This document shows positions 37,063-45,300 of a DNA stretch of 64,000 bases, piece by piece; the first letter of the stretch is position 1; each line of letters starts with the position of its first letter. The stretch spans positions 1 to 64,000 of the forward strand of contig JAAYDW010000068.1 in assembly GCA_012729055.1 (NCBI GenBank). The letters are read 5' to 3'. Made by a program: the position numbers and the translations under genes. A model generated the notes under the pieces. The model ran no database searches, was not told where the DNA came from, and worked only from the letters and a program-made list of their open reading frames with translations. This DNA is from Deltaproteobacteria bacterium (GTDB taxonomy: Bacteria > Desulfobacterota > Syntrophia > Syntrophales > Smithellaceae).

Positions 37063-38412
37063 TTATCCCAGTTCGGCTTTGACGACATCAGCAATCTGTC
37101 GGCAGTATTTTTCCGTCACGCTGTCGGTCGGGCCCTCCACCATGACGCGGCACATATTCTGCGTCCCGGAATAGCGCACCAGGACGCGCCCCTCTTCCCG
37201 GAGCTCCGATTCCGTCTGCCGGATGACCTCCATCAGCCGCGGGATCGTGCTGATTTCCGGCTTCCGCGCGACGTCCACGTTGATCAGCTTCTGCGGGAAA
37301 ATATCCATCATCTGCGCCAGTTCGGAAAGCGGTTTTCCTTCCCGGATCATGGCGGCCACGAGCTGCAGGGCAGCGATGATGCCGTCGCCCGTGGTGTGAT
37401 GCCTGAGAAAGATCATGTGTCCTGCCTCTTCGCCGCCGATTACGCCTCCCAGCCGCTTCATGTCTTCCAGAACGTAGCGGTCTCCGACCTTGGACGCGTG
37501 GTGCTTGAAACCGTACTTTTTGCAGGCGACCGTGAGGCCGAGATTGCTCATCACGGTGCTGACCAGGAGGTCGTTTTTCAATTTGCCGTCCTTCTTCAGA
37601 ATATTGGCGCAGATGACCAGAATCTGGTCTCCGGTGATTTCGCGGCCTTTTTCGTCCACCGCGATGAGGCGGTCACCGTCGCCGTCAAAGGCGAGGCCGA
37701 TGGCAGCCCCGGTTTCGAGAACCCGCGCCTTCAGTCGCTCCGTGTGCTGGGAGCCGCACTGGTCGTTGATGTTTGTGCCGTTGGGCGTTTTGTGAATAAC
37801 GTCGACATTGGCGCCCAGTTCGTTGAAGGTGTCCGGCGCAACCCGGTAGGTGGCGCCGTTGGCCGTGTCCAGAACGATTTTCATTCCCTCCATGGAGAGG
37901 CTGCGGGGAAACGTGTTTTTGACGAAGACGATGTAGCGGCCGTTTACGCCTTCCAGACGAAAAGCCCGTCCGATGTCCTGCGCGGTGGGCAGCAGGTCTT
38001 TGAGCTTTCCGTTGAGGATCAGATCTTCGATCATGTCTTCCTGTTCGTCGGTCAGCTTGTAGCCGTCGCCGCCGAAGATTTTGAGGCCGTTGTCCTGAAA
38101 GGGATTGTGCGAGGCGGAGATGACGACGCCCGCGTCGGCGCGCATGCTCTGTGTGACGAACGCGATGCCCGGCGTGGGCATGACGCCGACGAGGTAGGAA
38201 TATCCGCCCATGGAGGTGATGCCCGCCTCCAGGGAACTTTCCAGCATGTAACCGGAAAGGCGGGTGTCCTTGCCGATGATGACCACGGAGCGATGATTTT
38301 CCTTTTTAAACACGTGGGCAATCGCCCGTCCGACGCCAAAGGCGATTTCCGGCGTCATAGGGTAGAGGTTGGCTTCACCGCGAATTCCGTCTGTTCCAAA
38401 TAAATTACCCAT
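37063..38412 (-). CDS. glmM: phosphoglucosamine mutase
   Basis: A 449-residue alpha-phosphohexomutase. N-terminus GNLFGTDGIRGEAN, phospho-Ser loop VVISASHNPFQDNGLK, metal loop AFDGDGDRLIAVDE, sugar-specificity loop GGEEAGHMIF and phosphate loop RYSGTQNMCRVMVEG. It converts glucosamine 6-phosphate to glucosamine 1-phosphate on the way to UDP-GlcNAc for wall and LPS. The DGIRG and GEEAGH forms point to GlmM rather than phosphomannomutase. RBS AAGGAG lies 7 bases before ATG. Between a hexapeptide gene and a NagB-like gene. Confidence 0.95.
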   Translation of the reverse strand: MGNLFGTDGIRGEANLYPMTPEIAFGVGRAIAHVFKKENHRSVVIIGKDTRLSGYMLESSLEAGITSMGGYSYLVGVMPTPGIAFVTQSMRADAGVVISASHNPFQDNGLKIFGGDGYKLTDEQEDMIEDLILNGKLKDLLPTAQDIGRAFRLEGVNGRYIVFVKNTFPRSLSMEGMKIVLDTANGATYRVAPDTFNELGANVDVIHKTPNGTNINDQCGSQHTERLKARVLETGAAIGLAFDGDGDRLIAVDEKGREITGDQILVICANILKKDGKLKNDLLVSTVMSNLGLTVACKKYGFKHHASKVGDRYVLEDMKRLGGVIGGEEAGHMIFLRHHTTGDGIIAALQLVAAMIREGKPLSELAQMMDIFPQKLINVDVARKPEISTIPRLMEVIRQTESELREEGRVLVRYSGTQNMCRVMVEGPTDSVTEKYCRQIADVVKAELG

Positions 38413-38481: not shown

Positions 38482-39735
38482 TCAATTTCCGAATACGCCC
38501 GACGCCGGCAGCGCTTTTTTGACCCGGTCGCAAACCGCATCCACCAGCGTGTTGAGCCAGCGGCTTCCTTTTGCGGACACGTCCGCGGGCAGGCCTTGAA
38601 TCGTTTCAATGTAGGCGGCCTGTCTGTTTCCCGCTGCTTTTTCGAAGTCATTGAGAAAGACGTCGCGGGACATCCGGACGGCCGGCGGCTCATCCGGCAG
38701 CTGGCCGCTGAAAAGGTCCGCGAGGTAGTCCATCCGGTCGTGGAGCTCCTGTCTTGCCTCGGACGAGGACGAGGCGCGCTCGCTGCCGGCCGCCGCGGCT
38801 TTTTGCGCCATGGCTTTGAGGCGTTTGATCCGTTCTTTTTTGGCCGCGCCGATCTGCTCCAGAACGCCGGCGTAGAGCAGGCGGCCGAAAGGCTTGGCTT
38901 CCAGAAAAGGTTTGCGGACATCCGCGTACCAGGCTTCCAGCGCCGCCAGATTCGCCAGGTAGAGAATATTGTTTTCGACAATCCGCGCGAGGCCGGGATA
39001 ATGCGCCGGTATAAAGTCTCTGACCGAATCCGCCGGCGGCGCAGCAAAGATGAGCCGGCCGTCGTCGGAATAATTCCGCCGTAAAACGGAGCCGGCCGCC
39101 ACCACGTTGCCGTACCCCAGGCGCACGGGGCCGATGATGCCGCCCTGTCCGCCCAGAAAAATGGGGGGCTCTTTGAGCATGACCCCCCGGGGAACGTCGC
39201 CGAGAAGCGACGGCGTGCTTTTGTCCGCATCCGGCGTAAAATTGAAATGAATGTAGGAGCTCCCCACTTCCGAGTGGTTGCTGCGGCTGGTGCCGCCGGC
39301 CATCAGGCAGTCGCAGAAGTTGATCAGACTGCCCAGGGTGACGAACGGAAAAAGAATGGTCTGCTTCAAACCGACGCAGTGTGCCCCGCCTGCCTCCTCT
39401 TCGAGAATAGAGCCTTCGCGGACGTGACCGCCCAGCCCCATATTCGCCTTTTCCAGGAAAACGGATTTGCTGAAAAAACCTCCCTTTAATTCCACTTTTT
39501 CGCCCAGCTGGCAGTTATCGATCGTGACCGGGCCTTCATAGCCCAGCTTGCAGCCGGCGGAAAGAACGGTTTTGGCGCCGTAAATGCGGCAGCCCGGATA
39601 AATTTTCACGCCTTTTTCGGCAATCTGGTCGATGTTCACCTCATCGCCGATATCCAGTGTTGCGGGATTGGGGATGTCCACGCCGCGCGCGAGGAGTTCT
39701 TTGATTTTTTCATGCGCCTTCGGTTGCAAATCCAT
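38482..39735 (-). CDS. left-handed beta-helix (hexapeptide) protein, GlmU-related
   Basis: A 417-residue protein whose residues about 30-255 are hexapeptide-repeat turns (VKIYPGCRIYGAKTVL; NCQLGEKVELKGGFF; GPVRLGYGNVVAAGSVL), as in GlmU acetyltransferase and related sugar-nucleotide enzymes. The pyrophosphorylase N-domain of GlmU is absent. Residues 255-417 form a helical, charged domain. Next to glmM it could acetylate glucosamine 1-phosphate or act in a related step; that is inference. ATG 39735 has GAAGGAG upstream, while the frame opens 11 codons earlier. A short hairpin (AAGCGATC/GATCGCTT) follows near 38437-38460. Confidence 0.75.
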   Translation of the reverse strand: MDLQPKAHEKIKELLARGVDIPNPATLDIGDEVNIDQIAEKGVKIYPGCRIYGAKTVLSAGCKLGYEGPVTIDNCQLGEKVELKGGFFSKSVFLEKANMGLGGHVREGSILEEEAGGAHCVGLKQTILFPFVTLGSLINFCDCLMAGGTSRSNHSEVGSSYIHFNFTPDADKSTPSLLGDVPRGVMLKEPPIFLGGQGGIIGPVRLGYGNVVAAGSVLRRNYSDDGRLIFAAPPADSVRDFIPAHYPGLARIVENNILYLANLAALEAWYADVRKPFLEAKPFGRLLYAGVLEQIGAAKKERIKRLKAMAQKAAAAGSERASSSSEARQELHDRMDYLADLFSGQLPDEPPAVRMSRDVFLNDFEKAAGNRQAAYIETIQGLPADVSAKGSRWLNTLVDAVCDRVKKALPASGVFGN

Positions 39736-39780
39736 GGGATCTCCTTCGTTTTTTAAAAATGGCCCCAACCGCCGTCCAAT

Positions 39781-40782
39781 CTAGAGGGTTTCAATATCCC
39801 GGAGCTTTTCATATTCCATCACGGTGGACATGGCCTTGTTGTCCACCTCCAGCCCCTCTTCAACGACCGCGGCCACCGGATTGAGGCCGCCGATCAGGAT
39901 CATGCCGATTTTGTTTACGTCCACGCGGGTCTGGCAGACGGAATCTCCCATGTTGCCGATGGACAGGACGCCGTGAATGCCGCATTTGGCGAAGTCTTCA
40001 ATCACGCGGTCCACCTGGCCGCGGGACAGGGCCGGTATTTCACGGAAATTGGCGAGGATTTTTCCTTCGCCTTCCCGGACCACCTGCCTCACCGATGTCA
40101 TCTTGCCGCGGATGAAGATTTCCGACGGATCGAGAGAAGAACCGGCGTAGGAAATCAGCTCCACGAAACGCAGCGTTTCTCCCCGGCGCATCTGGAGAAT
40201 TCCGCCGAATTTGGAATCAATGGGAATGCCGTGTTTCAAAAGGACCCCGTTGATGACGATGCTGCATACGGTGGCCAGTCCGATTTTTCCGGGCGGCACC
40301 CGGATGTCGCCCAGAATCTTTCCGGCCGGAGCGACAGCCACCCGGGAACATACGGCCAGCTTTTTCTGGAACACGGGCTTCATGATGGCGAGCGCCTCGG
40401 GAAACTGTTCTTTGGCAAAGAAAGAGATGTTCACCGGCACCAGGCCGTTTTTCTTTTTAATATCGAAGGTGGTCTTGAAGGAAAGGACGTCGATGCGGGC
40501 GATGGACAGGCCGATTTTGTCCTGTACGCGCGCGTCGCTGATTTCGTGGAGCCCCTGCTCGGTGACGATCCGTCCGTCGCGGCGTCCCACCAGGCGCGTC
40601 AGTCCCCGCTCGTCCATGAGTTTGAGATGGTAGCGCACCGTCCGCTCGCTGAGCTTCACGCCCTGCTCGGCCATTTTGCGGGCGATGACGCGCGCCCCCA
40701 CCGGCTCCGCGCTTTCGTGCAGAATTTTCAGAATCAGGAGAACTTTCCGTTCGATATCTTCCGGTTTAAAAAGCTGTTTCAT
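39781..40782 (-). CDS. NrpR-family transcriptional repressor (winged helix + NrpR/DUF128 domain)
   Basis: A 333-residue regulator: winged helix-turn-helix (residues 6-75, ILHESAEPVGARVIARKM... SERTVRYHLKLMDERGL) followed by a single NrpR domain (about 80-330, CSIVINGVLLKHGIPIDSKFGG; GMILIGGLNPVAAVVEEG). In methanogens NrpR represses nitrogen-assimilation genes and is released by 2-oxoglutarate. The frame is open to 41001, but ATG 40782 gives the conserved N-terminus; the RBS is weak. It heads the run to glmM, nagB-like and pyrG and lies downstream of the giant GlmS. Target genes are unknown; local autoregulation is likely. Confidence 0.85.
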   Translation of the reverse strand: MKQLFKPEDIERKVLLILKILHESAEPVGARVIARKMAEQGVKLSERTVRYHLKLMDERGLTRLVGRRDGRIVTEQGLHEISDARVQDKIGLSIARIDVLSFKTTFDIKKKNGLVPVNISFFAKEQFPEALAIMKPVFQKKLAVCSRVAVAPAGKILGDIRVPPGKIGLATVCSIVINGVLLKHGIPIDSKFGGILQMRRGETLRFVELISYAGSSLDPSEIFIRGKMTSVRQVVREGEGKILANFREIPALSRGQVDRVIEDFAKCGIHGVLSIGNMGDSVCQTRVDVNKIGMILIGGLNPVAAVVEEGLEVDNKAMSTVMEYEKLRDIETL

Positions 40783-40819
40783 GCGTGGTTTAAGTTGTAA
40801 TCGGCTATCGTTTGCCGTA

Positions 40820-40848
40820 TTCCTACTTTTAAACCCTTTTTTTGTCAA
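40820..40848 (-). promoter_or_regulatory. possible promoter for the NrpR-glmM run
   Basis: TTGACA on the - strand (40843-40848), 17 bases, then TAGGAA (40820-40825), a poor -10. I did not find the archaeal NrpR operator GGAA-N6-TTCC in this gap. Confidence 0.4.
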
Positions 40849-40906
40849 ATGAAACTTCATGCCGGAGCGTTTTTTTTGAAGCCGGCCCGCGCGGCCGGAC
40901 GCATTT

Positions 40907-43900
40907 TTAAAGGAAGCCCTCCGTCTTTTCGGACGGAGCCGTCCATTCCTGCCGGGCGACCTGCGCTTTGATCCGGCCGGCGATGACCTCGACGGCTTCA
41001 CTGAAGAGAAATTCCAGCGGAAACGCCTCCAGATACCGGTCGGTCCAGATCAGGTTGTACTCATCGATGAGATTGCGGATATCGTTGTACCGGTAGCCCA
41101 GCGCCGTGATTTTCTGCGGCAGGCCGAGCGCCTCGTTGTATGCGATGTGAATCAAAAGCAGGTTGCTGATTTCCGGTCCTTCCGCCCGGTATGGGACGAT
41201 CAGGATGGGGGAGCCGTCCGTCTTCCCCCGGCCCAGATAGGCATGCCCCGTGCTGACGATGGTTCTTTTCACTCCCATCAGCGCCGTCGGCTGATCGGCG
41301 CGTGATTTCATGTGAAGAGCCGCTCCGGCTTTGGCGCAAACGGCAATCGTCGCTTGTTCAGTCGGATGGCCCTGGGCGTCCAGGCCGCGGATATCATACA
41401 CCGTATACCCCCGCACGGCGGCGAGCGCCGGCTGAATGCGGCTGATCATCCGGATGTCGCGGTAGCTCAGGTGCTTGAGGGTGATATTCAGGGAACCCAT
41501 GAGGTCGAAGATGAGGCCCGCCGCTTCTTTTTCCTTCCGGCTCGTTCCCACGGTCACCGTTTTGGCCTGGTGGCGAATGGCGTCGATGGGCCGGGACAGC
41601 TCATCGATGGCCGTCCCCAGGGTGACGTCAAGCAGGTCAAACGGCGAAAAAAGATCCTTTTCGTCCCGAAAGTCCTCGCGGATGTCCTGCAAAGGCAGTT
41701 TGCCGGCCGTGTATTTCATAAGCAGCAGGAGGTCGGAGAGGGTTTTGCCGCCGAGCACGCCGAAAGCGCCGCTCTGACGCCGTTCGTTGAAGGAACCGTA
41801 AAACGCGGCGATGATCCGGCCCAGCGACGGATCCGCAATGATGTCGAAAACGGACAGGCGCCGCTCTTGGCGCTGCGTGAGTTCCGCCGCCAGCCGTCCC
41901 CGGAACTCGCGGAGGAACTGCGCTTCCTCGTCGATGGCCTGCGCGGCGAAATAGCCCCACAGATGGCCGGCCATCGTGTTGAAGATGACCGGCAGGGGGG
42001 AGGGCGCCCGGGGAAGGGCGATAACCGCGTCGGCCGTGTCGTCGAAGCGCCCATCGCCTTCATCGGCGAAAACAATCACCGTTGACTTATGGGCTTTAAA
42101 GATGGCGACGTCCTTGGCGATATCCTCCTGCACCGCTTCGGGATTGCCCGCGGCGCAGACCAGGATCAGGGGTTCGGCGGATAAATCGATGTGCTTTTTG
42201 TTTTCAACGATGTCGGAGGAGATGGTGCGGTAGCAAAGCTCCGAGAGCTTGATCCGGATTTCATCGGCGGCCGCCTTGTTGGGGCCGCTGCCCACCACCG
42301 CCCAGTATCGTTTTCCGGCGGCTTTTTTCACCGACGCGGCGATCGCGTCGCGGCGCGCGACGATGCGGCTCATCAGCTGAGGCGCCGCTTCCAGATGCCG
42401 GAGCTGCAGGGCGATGGCGTCGTCGCTTTGCGCGCGCGTCAGCTTTGCGAAAAAGAGAGCCAGGATGTGGCCGGCGACGATCTGGGCGTAAAAGGCTTTG
42501 GTCGAGGCCACCGACATCTCGATGTCGCGTCCGTCGCTCGTGTAAAACACGCCGTGCGACTTGGCGGTGATGTCGGACTGCCGGCGGTTGACAATCGAGA
42601 GGATGAAGGCGCCGCGTTTCCGGGCCATGGCGACGGCGCGGTTGGTGTCGGTGGTGGTGCCGGATTGCGTAATTGGAATGACGAGCGCGCCGGAGAGGTC
42701 TTCCTGAAGTCCGAAACCGCTGAGCTCGGATGCCACGCGGGCGGTTACCATGATGCCGGTTCCCTTGAGGTGGTGCGCCATAGCGTCGGCTATCGCCTGG
42801 CCCGCCACTGCCGCTGTTCCGTGGCCGATGACGACGATGTTGCGGATCCGGCCGTTTTGCAGTTCCTCGCGCACCGCGGCGGGAACCATGTCCCCGCCCA
42901 GATTGAACTCTACGCCGACAGATGAAGGATGGTCGGAGATGATGCGGTATTTTCCCCGCAGGGTTCTCCGGACCGACAGAGCGGCTTCGGAGATTTCCTT
43001 GAGAAAGAAATGGGGAAAGCCGCCGCGGTCGATATCCCGGGTGGTGATTTCGGCGGTTTGCAGCGCGTCGTCGGCAAGAGCGAGTCTTTTGCCGTCGTAG
43101 GAAAAAGCGTCGATGCCGCCAAGGCCGCCGCGCGCCGGATCGAGGATGAAAATCTGGCCGGCCGCGGAGCCGTCCCGGGCCTCTCCGTTCATCTTGACGA
43201 AGCGGGGCATCACCTCCACGAGGCCGTACAGCTCCGAGGAAAATACATATTGATCGGGCGAGACGCCCACATAAAGGGACTGGCCGCTGCCTTTGAGCGC
43301 GAGAAACATTTTCCCCGGCTCCAGGCTGCAGTGCATGGCGATGGCATGCGATCCCTCAAAATCGTTTACGGCCAGCCGGAAGGCTTCCGGAAGCGGCGTC
43401 CCCTCCTGCAGGTACTTTTCAATTTGCAGCGGAATGATTTTGGTATCGGTCGTGACGGCGGGCGCAATCAGCTCTCCCCGGGACTCGAGGGCCTGGCGGA
43501 GCGCCGCATAGTTGTCAATGTCCCCGTTCAGCGCCACGCTGATCTGCGCGGCCGCGCCGACCGGCGCTTCTCCGCCTCTGTGATTGTTGACCGGATGACA
43601 ATTTTCTTCGGAGATGGAGCCGACGGAGGCCCAGCGGGTGTGCGTCAGGGCAATTTCGCCTGAGGCGCCGGCCGCGGCGAAAAGCCGCAGCAGGGAATCG
43701 TCCGAGATGGCGCGCCTGAGCGCCGCCACGTTGCGTCCCAGCTCGCCGACGATGGAATAGGTTTTATACGTGAAGGTAACGGAGATTTTTCCCGCGGAGG
43801 CCTGCGGATTCCGGCTGATCGAGACGGACGCGTCGCGCAAGTCCCCGGTTTGTGTGCGGCGCCGGAAATCGGCGGTTAATCCCCGGGCGGAAATTTGCCG

Positions 43901-44647
43901 TTCGATTTCCTGCAGGTTCTGGTCTTCGTCGAGCGCGAAGGCCAGCTGAATACCCGCCGAATCCCGTCCTCTTACTTCCAGGCGATCCAGCGCGTTTAAA
44001 AGCAAATTGAGCTTCCGGTATTTGCCGAATGCCGCCGGCGCCAGCTCTGCCGGGGAGTGCGCTCCGCTGAGGGAGGCGATCTTTTCCAGATTTTCCAGGA
44101 TGTCCTTCTCCAGCATCCAGCGGATGTCTTTGAGCAGGATGAGCCGGCTGTGAATGGTTTCCAGCTCGGCGGAGGAGAGGACCGCGGCCTGATCCTCCAG
44201 GTTTTTTTCCTCATCCGCCAGAAAGGCGCCCATGTCCCCGGCCAGCGACGCCAGGTTTTCCGCACGACCGGGGTGAAAAAAAAGATCTTTCTGGGCGGCT
44301 TCCCGCTTAAGCGACAAAACGGCCGCGTTTAGAGAGACGAGCGTTTCCTCTCCCCCTGCGTAATCGGCCGCCGTGCGGTTCCGGCCGGCAACAACGGCGA
44401 GGCCGGCGCTTTTTGCTTTTTCCCAAAGGCCGGCAAGCGGCATGTCGGCGGCTGTTTTTCCGGATGGTTTCCCGCTCCGGCAGGTCATCAGACCGGCCAG
44501 ACCGCAATTAAGCCGGCCGGGCAGGAAGGGGAAGAAGATGATCGCGGGCGCGCTCACGCAAGCCGGGCGACGACCGATGTGGAGACGGCATCGAATAATG
44601 AAAAGCAGAAAATTGTGCAAACGGCGGGACATTTTTGTATAACGCAT
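40907..44647 (-). CDS. giant GlmS-like amidotransferase/SIS protein
   Basis: A 1246-codon protein, about twice GlmS (about 610). GlmS hallmarks are spread out: CGLAGLM (Cys48, expected glutaminase nucleophile), RGRDSAG at 226-232, LTHTRWASVG at 335-344, VALNGDIDN at 372-380, SIS domain 1 with TQSGTTTDT (661-669) and VASTKAF (714-720), SIS 2 from about 780 with KLSELCY (801-807), and AKTVTV (1029-1034), which matches the usual C-terminus. Extra parts: about 150 helical residues between Cys48 and RGRDSAG, about 100 residues before AKTVTV, and about 210 new residues after it. It should use glutamine to aminate a sugar phosphate. The start is uncertain: ATG 44647 or 44632, or GTG 44557, none with a good RBS and none next to Cys48. 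Confidence 0.82.
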   Translation of the reverse strand: MRYTKMSRRLHNFLLFIIRCRLHIGRRPACVSAPAIIFFPFLPGRLNCGLAGLMTCRSGKPSGKTAADMPLAGLWEKAKSAGLAVVAGRNRTAADYAGGEETLVSLNAAVLSLKREAAQKDLFFHPGRAENLASLAGDMGAFLADEEKNLEDQAAVLSSAELETIHSRLILLKDIRWMLEKDILENLEKIASLSGAHSPAELAPAAFGKYRKLNLLLNALDRLEVRGRDSAGIQLAFALDEDQNLQEIERQISARGLTADFRRRTQTGDLRDASVSISRNPQASAGKISVTFTYKTYSIVGELGRNVAALRRAISDDSLLRLFAAAGASGEIALTHTRWASVGSISEENCHPVNNHRGGEAPVGAAAQISVALNGDIDNYAALRQALESRGELIAPAVTTDTKIIPLQIEKYLQEGTPLPEAFRLAVNDFEGSHAIAMHCSLEPGKMFLALKGSGQSLYVGVSPDQYVFSSELYGLVEVMPRFVKMNGEARDGSAAGQIFILDPARGGLGGIDAFSYDGKRLALADDALQTAEITTRDIDRGGFPHFFLKEISEAALSVRRTLRGKYRIISDHPSSVGVEFNLGGDMVPAAVREELQNGRIRNIVVIGHGTAAVAGQAIADAMAHHLKGTGIMVTARVASELSGFGLQEDLSGALVIPITQSGTTTDTNRAVAMARKRGAFILSIVNRRQSDITAKSHGVFYTSDGRDIEMSVASTKAFYAQIVAGHILALFFAKLTRAQSDDAIALQLRHLEAAPQLMSRIVARRDAIAASVKKAAGKRYWAVVGSGPNKAAADEIRIKLSELCYRTISSDIVENKKHIDLSAEPLILVCAAGNPEAVQEDIAKDVAIFKAHKSTVIVFADEGDGRFDDTADAVIALPRAPSPLPVIFNTMAGHLWGYFAAQAIDEEAQFLREFRGRLAAELTQRQERRLSVFDIIADPSLGRIIAAFYGSFNERRQSGAFGVLGGKTLSDLLLLMKYTAGKLPLQDIREDFRDEKDLFSPFDLLDVTLGTAIDELSRPIDAIRHQAKTVTVGTSRKEKEAAGLIFDLMGSLNITLKHLSYRDIRMISRIQPALAAVRGYTVYDIRGLDAQGHPTEQATIAVCAKAGAALHMKSRADQPTALMGVKRTIVSTGHAYLGRGKTDGSPILIVPYRAEGPEISNLLLIHIAYNEALGLPQKITALGYRYNDIRNLIDEYNLIWTDRYLEAFPLEFLFSEAVEVIAGRIKAQVARQEWTAPSEKTEGFL

Positions 44648-44988: not shown

Positions 44989-45300
44989 CTATTTCATTTT
45001 TTCGCAGTCGATGCCCAGTTTGGCCATCTTGTCGGTAAAGGTGTTGCGGTTGATGCCCAGATAAGCGGCCGCCGTGCTTTTCACATAACTGGAGCGCCGC
45101 AGCGCGATTTTAAACAAACCCTTTTCCACCATCGCCATGACTTCTTCGTGCAGTTTGCTTTTGCCGTTGTCGGAAACGGCCAGAACCGTCGCCAGGTCAT
45201 CCAGATTTTTTTCCAATATTTCTTCAACGGCCGCGTGACAGGTTTCATGCACGTCCGATACGGCCGCCGGTTTGTCGAATTTTCTTGCCTTGATCGTCAT
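44989..45300 (-). CDS. Fis-family DNA-binding protein
   Basis: A 103-residue protein whose last 45 residues form a Fis-type helix-turn-helix (SSYVKSTAAAYLGINRNTFTDKMAKLGI), the same as the DNA-binding end of NtrC activators and of E. coli Fis. The N-terminal half, with HEEVMAMVEKGLFKIALRR, matches the Fis dimerisation helices. Probable nucleoid-associated or global regulator. RBS GGGAG lies a few bases before ATG. It is transcribed towards the giant GlmS gene, but 341 bases separate them. Confidence 0.82.
   Translation of the reverse strand: MTIKARKFDKPAAVSDVHETCHAAVEEILEKNLDDLATVLAVSDNGKSKLHEEVMAMVEKGLFKIALRRSSYVKSTAAAYLGINRNTFTDKMAKLGIDCEKMK

Follow-up and report, generated by a model that had tools for sequence, protein, structure and literature searches.

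The window, a stretch of 64,000 nucleotides from contig JAAYDW010000068.1 of a Smithellaceae genome (order Syntrophales, phylum Desulfobacterota), contains an open reading frame (ORF) for a protein that resembles glucosamine-6-phosphate synthase (GlmS). With 1246 amino acids against about 610 for GlmS/GFAT, the product is about twice the usual size, as an earlier reading of the letters alone (hereafter the sequence-only reading) had pointed out. This giant GlmS is a real family, conserved above chance. When 84,980 species genomes were scanned at the DNA level with a single-sequence probe, we recovered 39 relatives, whose names include Syntrophaceae, Smithella, Smithellaceae, Syntrophobacterales, Deltaproteobacteria and one Pseudomonadota, among others. 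Full length was found in 31 of the 39 (1225-1261 amino acids), the 30 full-length relatives that were aligned are 53-68% identical to the window protein, and most full-length giants span 1195-1261 amino acids. The sequence-only reading had considered that the ORF might be two genes fused in the assembly, and glmS joined in this way to unrelated genes was weighed here. The size is all that speaks for this explanation, but the same architecture recurs in the 39 named loci, with full-length relatives among them, and in 129 of 149 genomes of the order, and it is present in genomes assembled as a single contig, both in the order (G036) and in the phylum (G305). A fusion artefact is thereby ruled out, its probability being close to nil. 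In the literature we found no description of a giant GlmS, of a GlmS leader or of a GlmS sensor domain, and no named subfamily of this length emerged, in agreement with the earlier view of the protein as an undescribed GlmS-like form. No glmS ribozyme or other Rfam RNA reached the gathering score near the gene, and the viral fold library gave no match to the protein at E ≤ 0.001.

The core of the giant is GlmS by sequence, by its active-site residues and by its predicted fold. Pfam assigns residues 329-472 to a class II glutaminase (PF13522) and residues 602-730 to a single SIS domain (PF01380), and the NCBIfam GlmS models align from residue 319 or 323 to 904 and over a second stretch, covering both domains with 234-259 bits (cut-offs 381 and 418). 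Among proteins of solved structure, E. coli GlmS and human GFAT-1 match best, and core identity to canonical GlmS is about 27-30%. Equivalents of the E. coli residues Cys1, Arg26, Arg73, Trp74, Asn98, Gly99 and Asp123, and of Thr302, Gln348, Ser349, Thr352, Lys485, Glu488, His504 and Lys603, are kept in all 60 giants aligned and in 3/3 short relatives, so the GlmS landmarks named in the sequence-only reading are indeed in place; the Cys column was partly pre-selected, as sequences had been trimmed at the CG motif, and Cys48 is also invariant in two other alignments. A constant departure from canonical GlmS is Ser at glutaminase position Thr76, and Ser347 is mostly Thr. An AlphaFold model of residues 48-1246 (mean predicted local distance difference test score, pLDDT, 76.9; predicted template modelling score 0.69) places 237 of 239 glutaminase residues on 1xff_B at 1.8 Å (Z 28.7 by VIA), the superposition on GlmS that had been proposed, and 298 isomerase residues on 2poc_A at 2.7 Å (Z 27.3). 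Model residues 740-792, which hold the Lys485, Glu488 and His504 equivalents, are of low confidence. Judged from sequence and model, the core looks active, and we are highly confident in regarding the giant as a glucosamine-6-phosphate synthase. Under TIGR01135, the GlmS equivalog, the protein scores 234 bits (222 in the genome search), below the curated cut-off of 418; since it also departs from the equivalog in the position of its Cys and in the end of its C-tail, we assign it to a new subfamily outside TIGR01135 that would nevertheless work like GlmS.

Table 1. Giant GlmS in the window, its parts, and the genes that follow it on the same strand
Feature	Coordinates	Strand	Basis
Giant GlmS ORF, 1246 amino acids	40907..44647	(-)	stop-free; full length kept in 31 named loci
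N-terminal extension (propeptide candidate), residues 1-47, I..G..P..V..P(A/S)II(F/L)FP.....L.CG	44507..44647	(-)	conservation, codon-position bias
Cys48, predicted glutaminase nucleophile (E. coli Cys1)	44504..44506	(-)	invariant in full-length alignments
Insert 1 (residues 58-205, about 150), helical; lies after first strand and before first helix of glutaminase domain	44033..44476	(-)	alignment, predicted structure
Remainder of glutaminase (class II amidotransferase) domain, residues 206-535	43043..44032	(-)	PF13522; VIA Z 28.7
Insert 2, about 66 extra residues within 237-330, inside glutaminase domain	43658..43939	(-)	Arg26-Arg73 distance
Tandem SIS isomerase domain, residues 536-905	41933..43042	(-)	PF01380; VIA Z 27.3
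Helical insert before C-tail, residues 906-1016, about 111 extra	41600..41932	(-)	Glu488-Lys603 length, model
C-tail motif IRHQAKTVTV with catalytic Lys1029 (E. coli Lys603)	41549..41578	(-)	Lys invariant 60/60
C-terminal domain, residues 1034-1246, PAS/GAF-like predicted fold	40910..41548	(-)	model pLDDT 92.6 (domain modelled alone); best VIA match 7jsr_A
NrpR-like regulator	39781..41001	(-)	PF01995 E 1e-82; conserved in only part of family
Left-handed beta-helix protein, matches acetyltransferase half of GlmU only	38482..39768	(-)	most conserved pathway neighbour
glmM, phosphoglucosamine mutase	37063..38412	(-)	TIGR01455 577 bits, over cut-off
NagB-like glucosamine-6-phosphate deaminase relative, 319 amino acids	36083..37042	(-)	PF01182; below NagB equivalog cut-offs

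The additional mass is distributed over five parts, a leader and four added segments. In a 67-sequence alignment, in which the window protein was compared with four canonical GlmS, the distance from the Cys to the Arg of RGxDSAG (Cys1-Arg26) is 178 residues instead of 25, that from this Arg to the Arg of HTRWA (Arg26-Arg73) 112 instead of 46, and that between Glu488 and Lys603 226 instead of 115; 217-218 residues follow the Lys603 equivalent where canonical GlmS has 6, and 47 residues precede the Cys where canonical GlmS has none. These lengths are almost constant throughout the giant family. The three extra segments of the sequence-only reading are thus confirmed, while the leader and the insert of about 66 residues had been overlooked. 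Insert 1 is entirely helical in the predicted structure, as had been supposed for the roughly 150 residues between the Cys motif and RGRDSAG, and profile searches with it gave no convincing Pfam or PDB family match. Three shorter relatives (L116, L117 and L118; about 1137-1163 amino acids) have smaller inserts and a diverged C-terminal domain, and may show the ancestral state.

The leader, 42-55 amino acids long across the family, precedes the nucleophile Cys. Among close relatives its three codon positions carry 0.33, 0.25 and 0.52 substitutions, compared to 0.69, 0.72 and 0.72 in upstream DNA; because substitutions cluster at third positions, unlike upstream, the leader must be translated. 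A translation start at the Cys is ruled out: of 61 sequences, 58 have a non-start codon (for Asn, Cys, Phe, Ser, Pro, Ala or Gly) just before it. A lipoprotein signal was likewise rejected, the residues before the Cys forming no lipobox by eye, and profile searches with the leader found no convincing Pfam or PDB sequence family match. In class II amidotransferases an N-terminal Cys serves as the nucleophile (PMC7948480), and PurF and glutamate synthase have precursors that process themselves (PMC5753285). By analogy with these, the leader can be regarded as a putative propeptide, which is probably cleaved off to expose Cys48. Conversely, the extension could be retained; the glutaminase site would then either be inactive or act although its Cys is not a free N-terminus, and the enzyme would draw on free ammonia or an outside glutaminase. 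The conservation of Pro at -8 (58/58) and of Gly at -23 (53/58) exceeds what a discarded leader would need and thus speaks for retention, but none of the 60 giants has lost a glutaminase residue (Thr76 is present as Ser), and the only sequences with Cys directly after the initiator, L107 and L117 (MCG) and L116 (VCG, with a GTG start), all without a leader, must bring it to the N-terminus by another route; we therefore consider retention rather improbable. For a leader that is cleaved, its strong conservation suggests an added role in folding or self-cleavage. L107 is nested within the leader-bearing clade, a position that looks like leader loss and a return to plain Met removal, and L118 has no clear start motif.

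About 200 residues follow QAK(T/S)VTV in every full-length protein examined, short relatives included, except at the masked locus L038. In its model this C-terminal domain looks PAS/GAF-like: the best whole-domain match is to residues 171-361 of the large glutamate dehydrogenase of M. smegmatis (7jsr_A; Z 9.4, 167 of 200 residues, 4.8 Å), and many PAS/GAF chains align over 76-120 residues with Z 6.4-8.0. No Pfam family matches the domain of the window protein, or any of 18 members at E 0.001; PAS/GAF families are absent from the Pfam profile search even at E ≤ 1, and the best hit of a PDB sequence search, a lipoprotein, has E 0.22. The earlier statement that this part matches nothing known has thus held up in the profile searches it had called for. 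Sequence kinship with the large glutamate dehydrogenase was rejected by hhalign (probability about 1%), and the structural likeness is therefore a lead to function only. In that enzyme, L-GDH180, the N-terminal segment is a sensor (PMC8175468). Based on the model, the chances that the C-terminal domain of the giant is regulatory appear evenly balanced. The domain and the inserts might instead serve assembly or docking, by oligomer contacts or by tethering GlmM or an acetyltransferase, without any ligand sensing. Insert 1 and the insert before the C-tail are helical, PAS/GAF-like folds also mediate dimers, and pathway genes adjoin the giant gene, all of which would suit such a role; on the other hand, direct fusion onto the catalytic C-tail makes a poor site for a passive tether, and catalysis by human GFAT is disturbed by tags at either end (PMC8041777). 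Docking as the sole function hence seems unlikely, though it is the strongest of the alternatives.

The giant form has replaced canonical GlmS almost wherever it occurs. In a systematic search covering one phylum, carriers were detected with the C-terminal domain as the probe, and canonical GlmS was taken as a match over the TIGR01135 cut-off. Order and phylum are used here as labelled in the genome set; the named relatives suggest that they are Syntrophales and Desulfobacterota. The domain occurs in 129 of the 149 genomes of the window's order, and canonical GlmS over cut-off in 0/149; a truncated piece of 118 amino acids at a contig end in G121 resembles canonical GlmS (model positions 486-606, E 1e-42) and may be contamination. 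Across the phylum the domain is found in 46 of 395 genomes, nearly all in ORFs of about 1200-1300 amino acids, and in a patchy fashion, with families f54, f69, f70, f76 and f88 each mixing giant-bearing and canonical-GlmS genomes. Of the 311 phylum genomes with canonical GlmS, 310 belong to the 349 non-carriers and only one, G327 (locus L113), to the 46 carriers (1/45 versus 310/39; Fisher p about 1e-34, related genomes not being independent). The genome from which the window comes (completeness 100%, contamination 1.15%) yielded no match over the GlmS cut-off, and besides the giant only two further proteins matched the GlmS model, a 484-amino-acid ORF, presumably PurF-sized, and a SIS protein of 349 amino acids. 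In all likelihood, the giant is the sole and essential GlmS of this lineage.

The gene surroundings are those of amino-sugar synthesis. After the giant follow, on the same strand, the NrpR-like, beta-helix, glmM and NagB-like genes and then pyrG, the last read from its translation. In most Syntrophales loci, and in four from outside the order, the giant has the beta-helix gene next to it; several loci also include glmM and the NagB-like gene, and fewer include NrpR. The uridylyltransferase half of GlmU is encoded alone elsewhere in the same genome (C30:58843-59562(-), a 274-amino-acid ORF), and bifunctional GlmU over cut-off is present in 0/60 genomes of the order; GlmU thus appears to be split into separate halves. 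With glmM and a GlmU half as neighbours, the neighbourhood points to UDP-N-acetylglucosamine (UDP-GlcNAc) synthesis. This bears on the possibility that the giant aminates another ketose phosphate in a secondary amino-sugar pathway. Two residues close to the sugar phosphate are changed (Ser303 to Ala, Glu351 to Thr), which could be taken to support it, but Ala at 303 and Thr at 347 each occur in one of the four canonical GlmS compared, peptidoglycan needs UDP-GlcNAc, and the giant is the only GlmS found in its genome and order. We consider another ketose highly improbable, and a different sugar, which the sequence-only reading had offered as one role of the extra parts, is not favoured, since no second GlmS is present in the lineage and the neighbours of the gene include glmM and the gene for a GlmU-like acetyltransferase. 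As to the other genes, NagB models match the NagB-like protein in two stretches, and synteny of its gene with glmM and the GlmU-half gene extends beyond the order (L104, L124, L126). The NrpR-like gene, with an NRD1_2 domain that we take to be that of an archaeal nitrogen regulator, overlaps the end of the giant if its first listed start is used. Upstream of the giant, a Fis/NtrC-type helix-turn-helix protein of 103 amino acids (44989-45300(-)) is encoded in nearly every Syntrophales locus whose flanks are long enough.

Our preferred reading, to which we assign a probability of about 0.6, is that the giant is a housekeeping glutamine:fructose-6-phosphate amidotransferase that is made as a precursor, loses its leader by cleavage and carries a sensor-like domain on its C-tail. 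The role of the C-tail is described in PMC8041777. In the proposed course of events, the giant would be translated as a precursor, from which the leader of about 47 amino acids is removed, probably autocatalytically as in PurF and glutamate synthase precursors, leaving Cys48 as the N-terminal nucleophile. The glutaminase domain would then hydrolyse glutamine, and the ammonia would move to the SIS domain, where fructose-6-phosphate would be converted to glucosamine-6-phosphate, the supply for GlmM and then for GlmU in its split form. The lid over both sites of normal GlmS is the C-tail, which carries Lys603; in the giant this C-tail extends into the PAS/GAF-like domain, whose most likely role would be to bind a metabolite and set lid mobility, a form of allosteric control. 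A sensor fused directly to the lid could control both site closing and ammonia transfer. We know of no such allosteric control in normal bacterial GlmS. In its most specific form, a self-activating GlmS precursor in which a domain from a new PAS/GAF-like family binds a ligand and gates ammonia transfer from the lid, the proposal is tentative, and we hold it to be less probable than not. Several observations weigh against our reading. The leader is conserved unusually well for a discarded segment, and in the core His77 is replaced by Val (58/60) in addition to the changes at positions 303 and 351, all of them constant departures from canonical GlmS. The Z of 9.4 for the C-terminal domain is just modestly over the typical background of 7-8, and profile searches and hhalign link its sequence to no PAS, GAF or glutamate dehydrogenase family. 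Finally, 20 of the 149 genomes of the order show neither GlmS form, and a full-profile rescue search in these, run with no positive control, recovered nothing; gaps in draft or metagenome-assembled genomes are most simply the reason.

Peptidoglycan and lipopolysaccharide have the GlmS product as their first committed precursor, and throughout a bacterial order a double-size form of this essential enzyme takes the place of the normal one. Normal GlmS works with both ends free; the giant has both ends occupied and is the sole form in the whole order, and should therefore reveal how extra parts are tolerated by an enzyme whose nucleophile is an N-terminal Cys, and what these parts regulate. The role of each form could be asked in G327, which holds both. 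For annotation, standard cut-offs make these genomes look as if they were devoid of GlmS and of bifunctional GlmU. If the preferred reading is true, the precursor and the gating of the lid would constitute a control of amino-sugar synthesis that is described for no GlmS in the literature searched.

With GlmS/GFAT (TIGR01135; E. coli 2j6h, human GFAT-1 6r4e) the giant shares the glutaminase and tandem SIS domains, the main catalytic residues and the AKTVTV C-tail, but it has four added segments and a leader, its C-tail is not at the C-terminus, and its Cys48 is preceded by 47 residues, whereas the canonical Cys directly follows the initiator Met. Eukaryotic GFAT is likewise an amidotransferase with added regulation; there, UDP-GlcNAc feedback acts through a regulatory loop and the interdomain linker, with no C-terminal domain (PMC8041777, PMC7948480). 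A conserved leader before an N-terminal Cys nucleophile is shared with PurF and glutamate synthase precursors (MEROPS C44, PMC5753285); in the giant it sits on a GlmS core, matches no known PDB sequence and would be cleaved in a comparable manner. The predicted fold of the C-terminal domain, finally, aligns with the N-terminal sensor segment of L-GDH180 (7jsr, PMC8175468), which lies at the opposite end of an unrelated enzyme.

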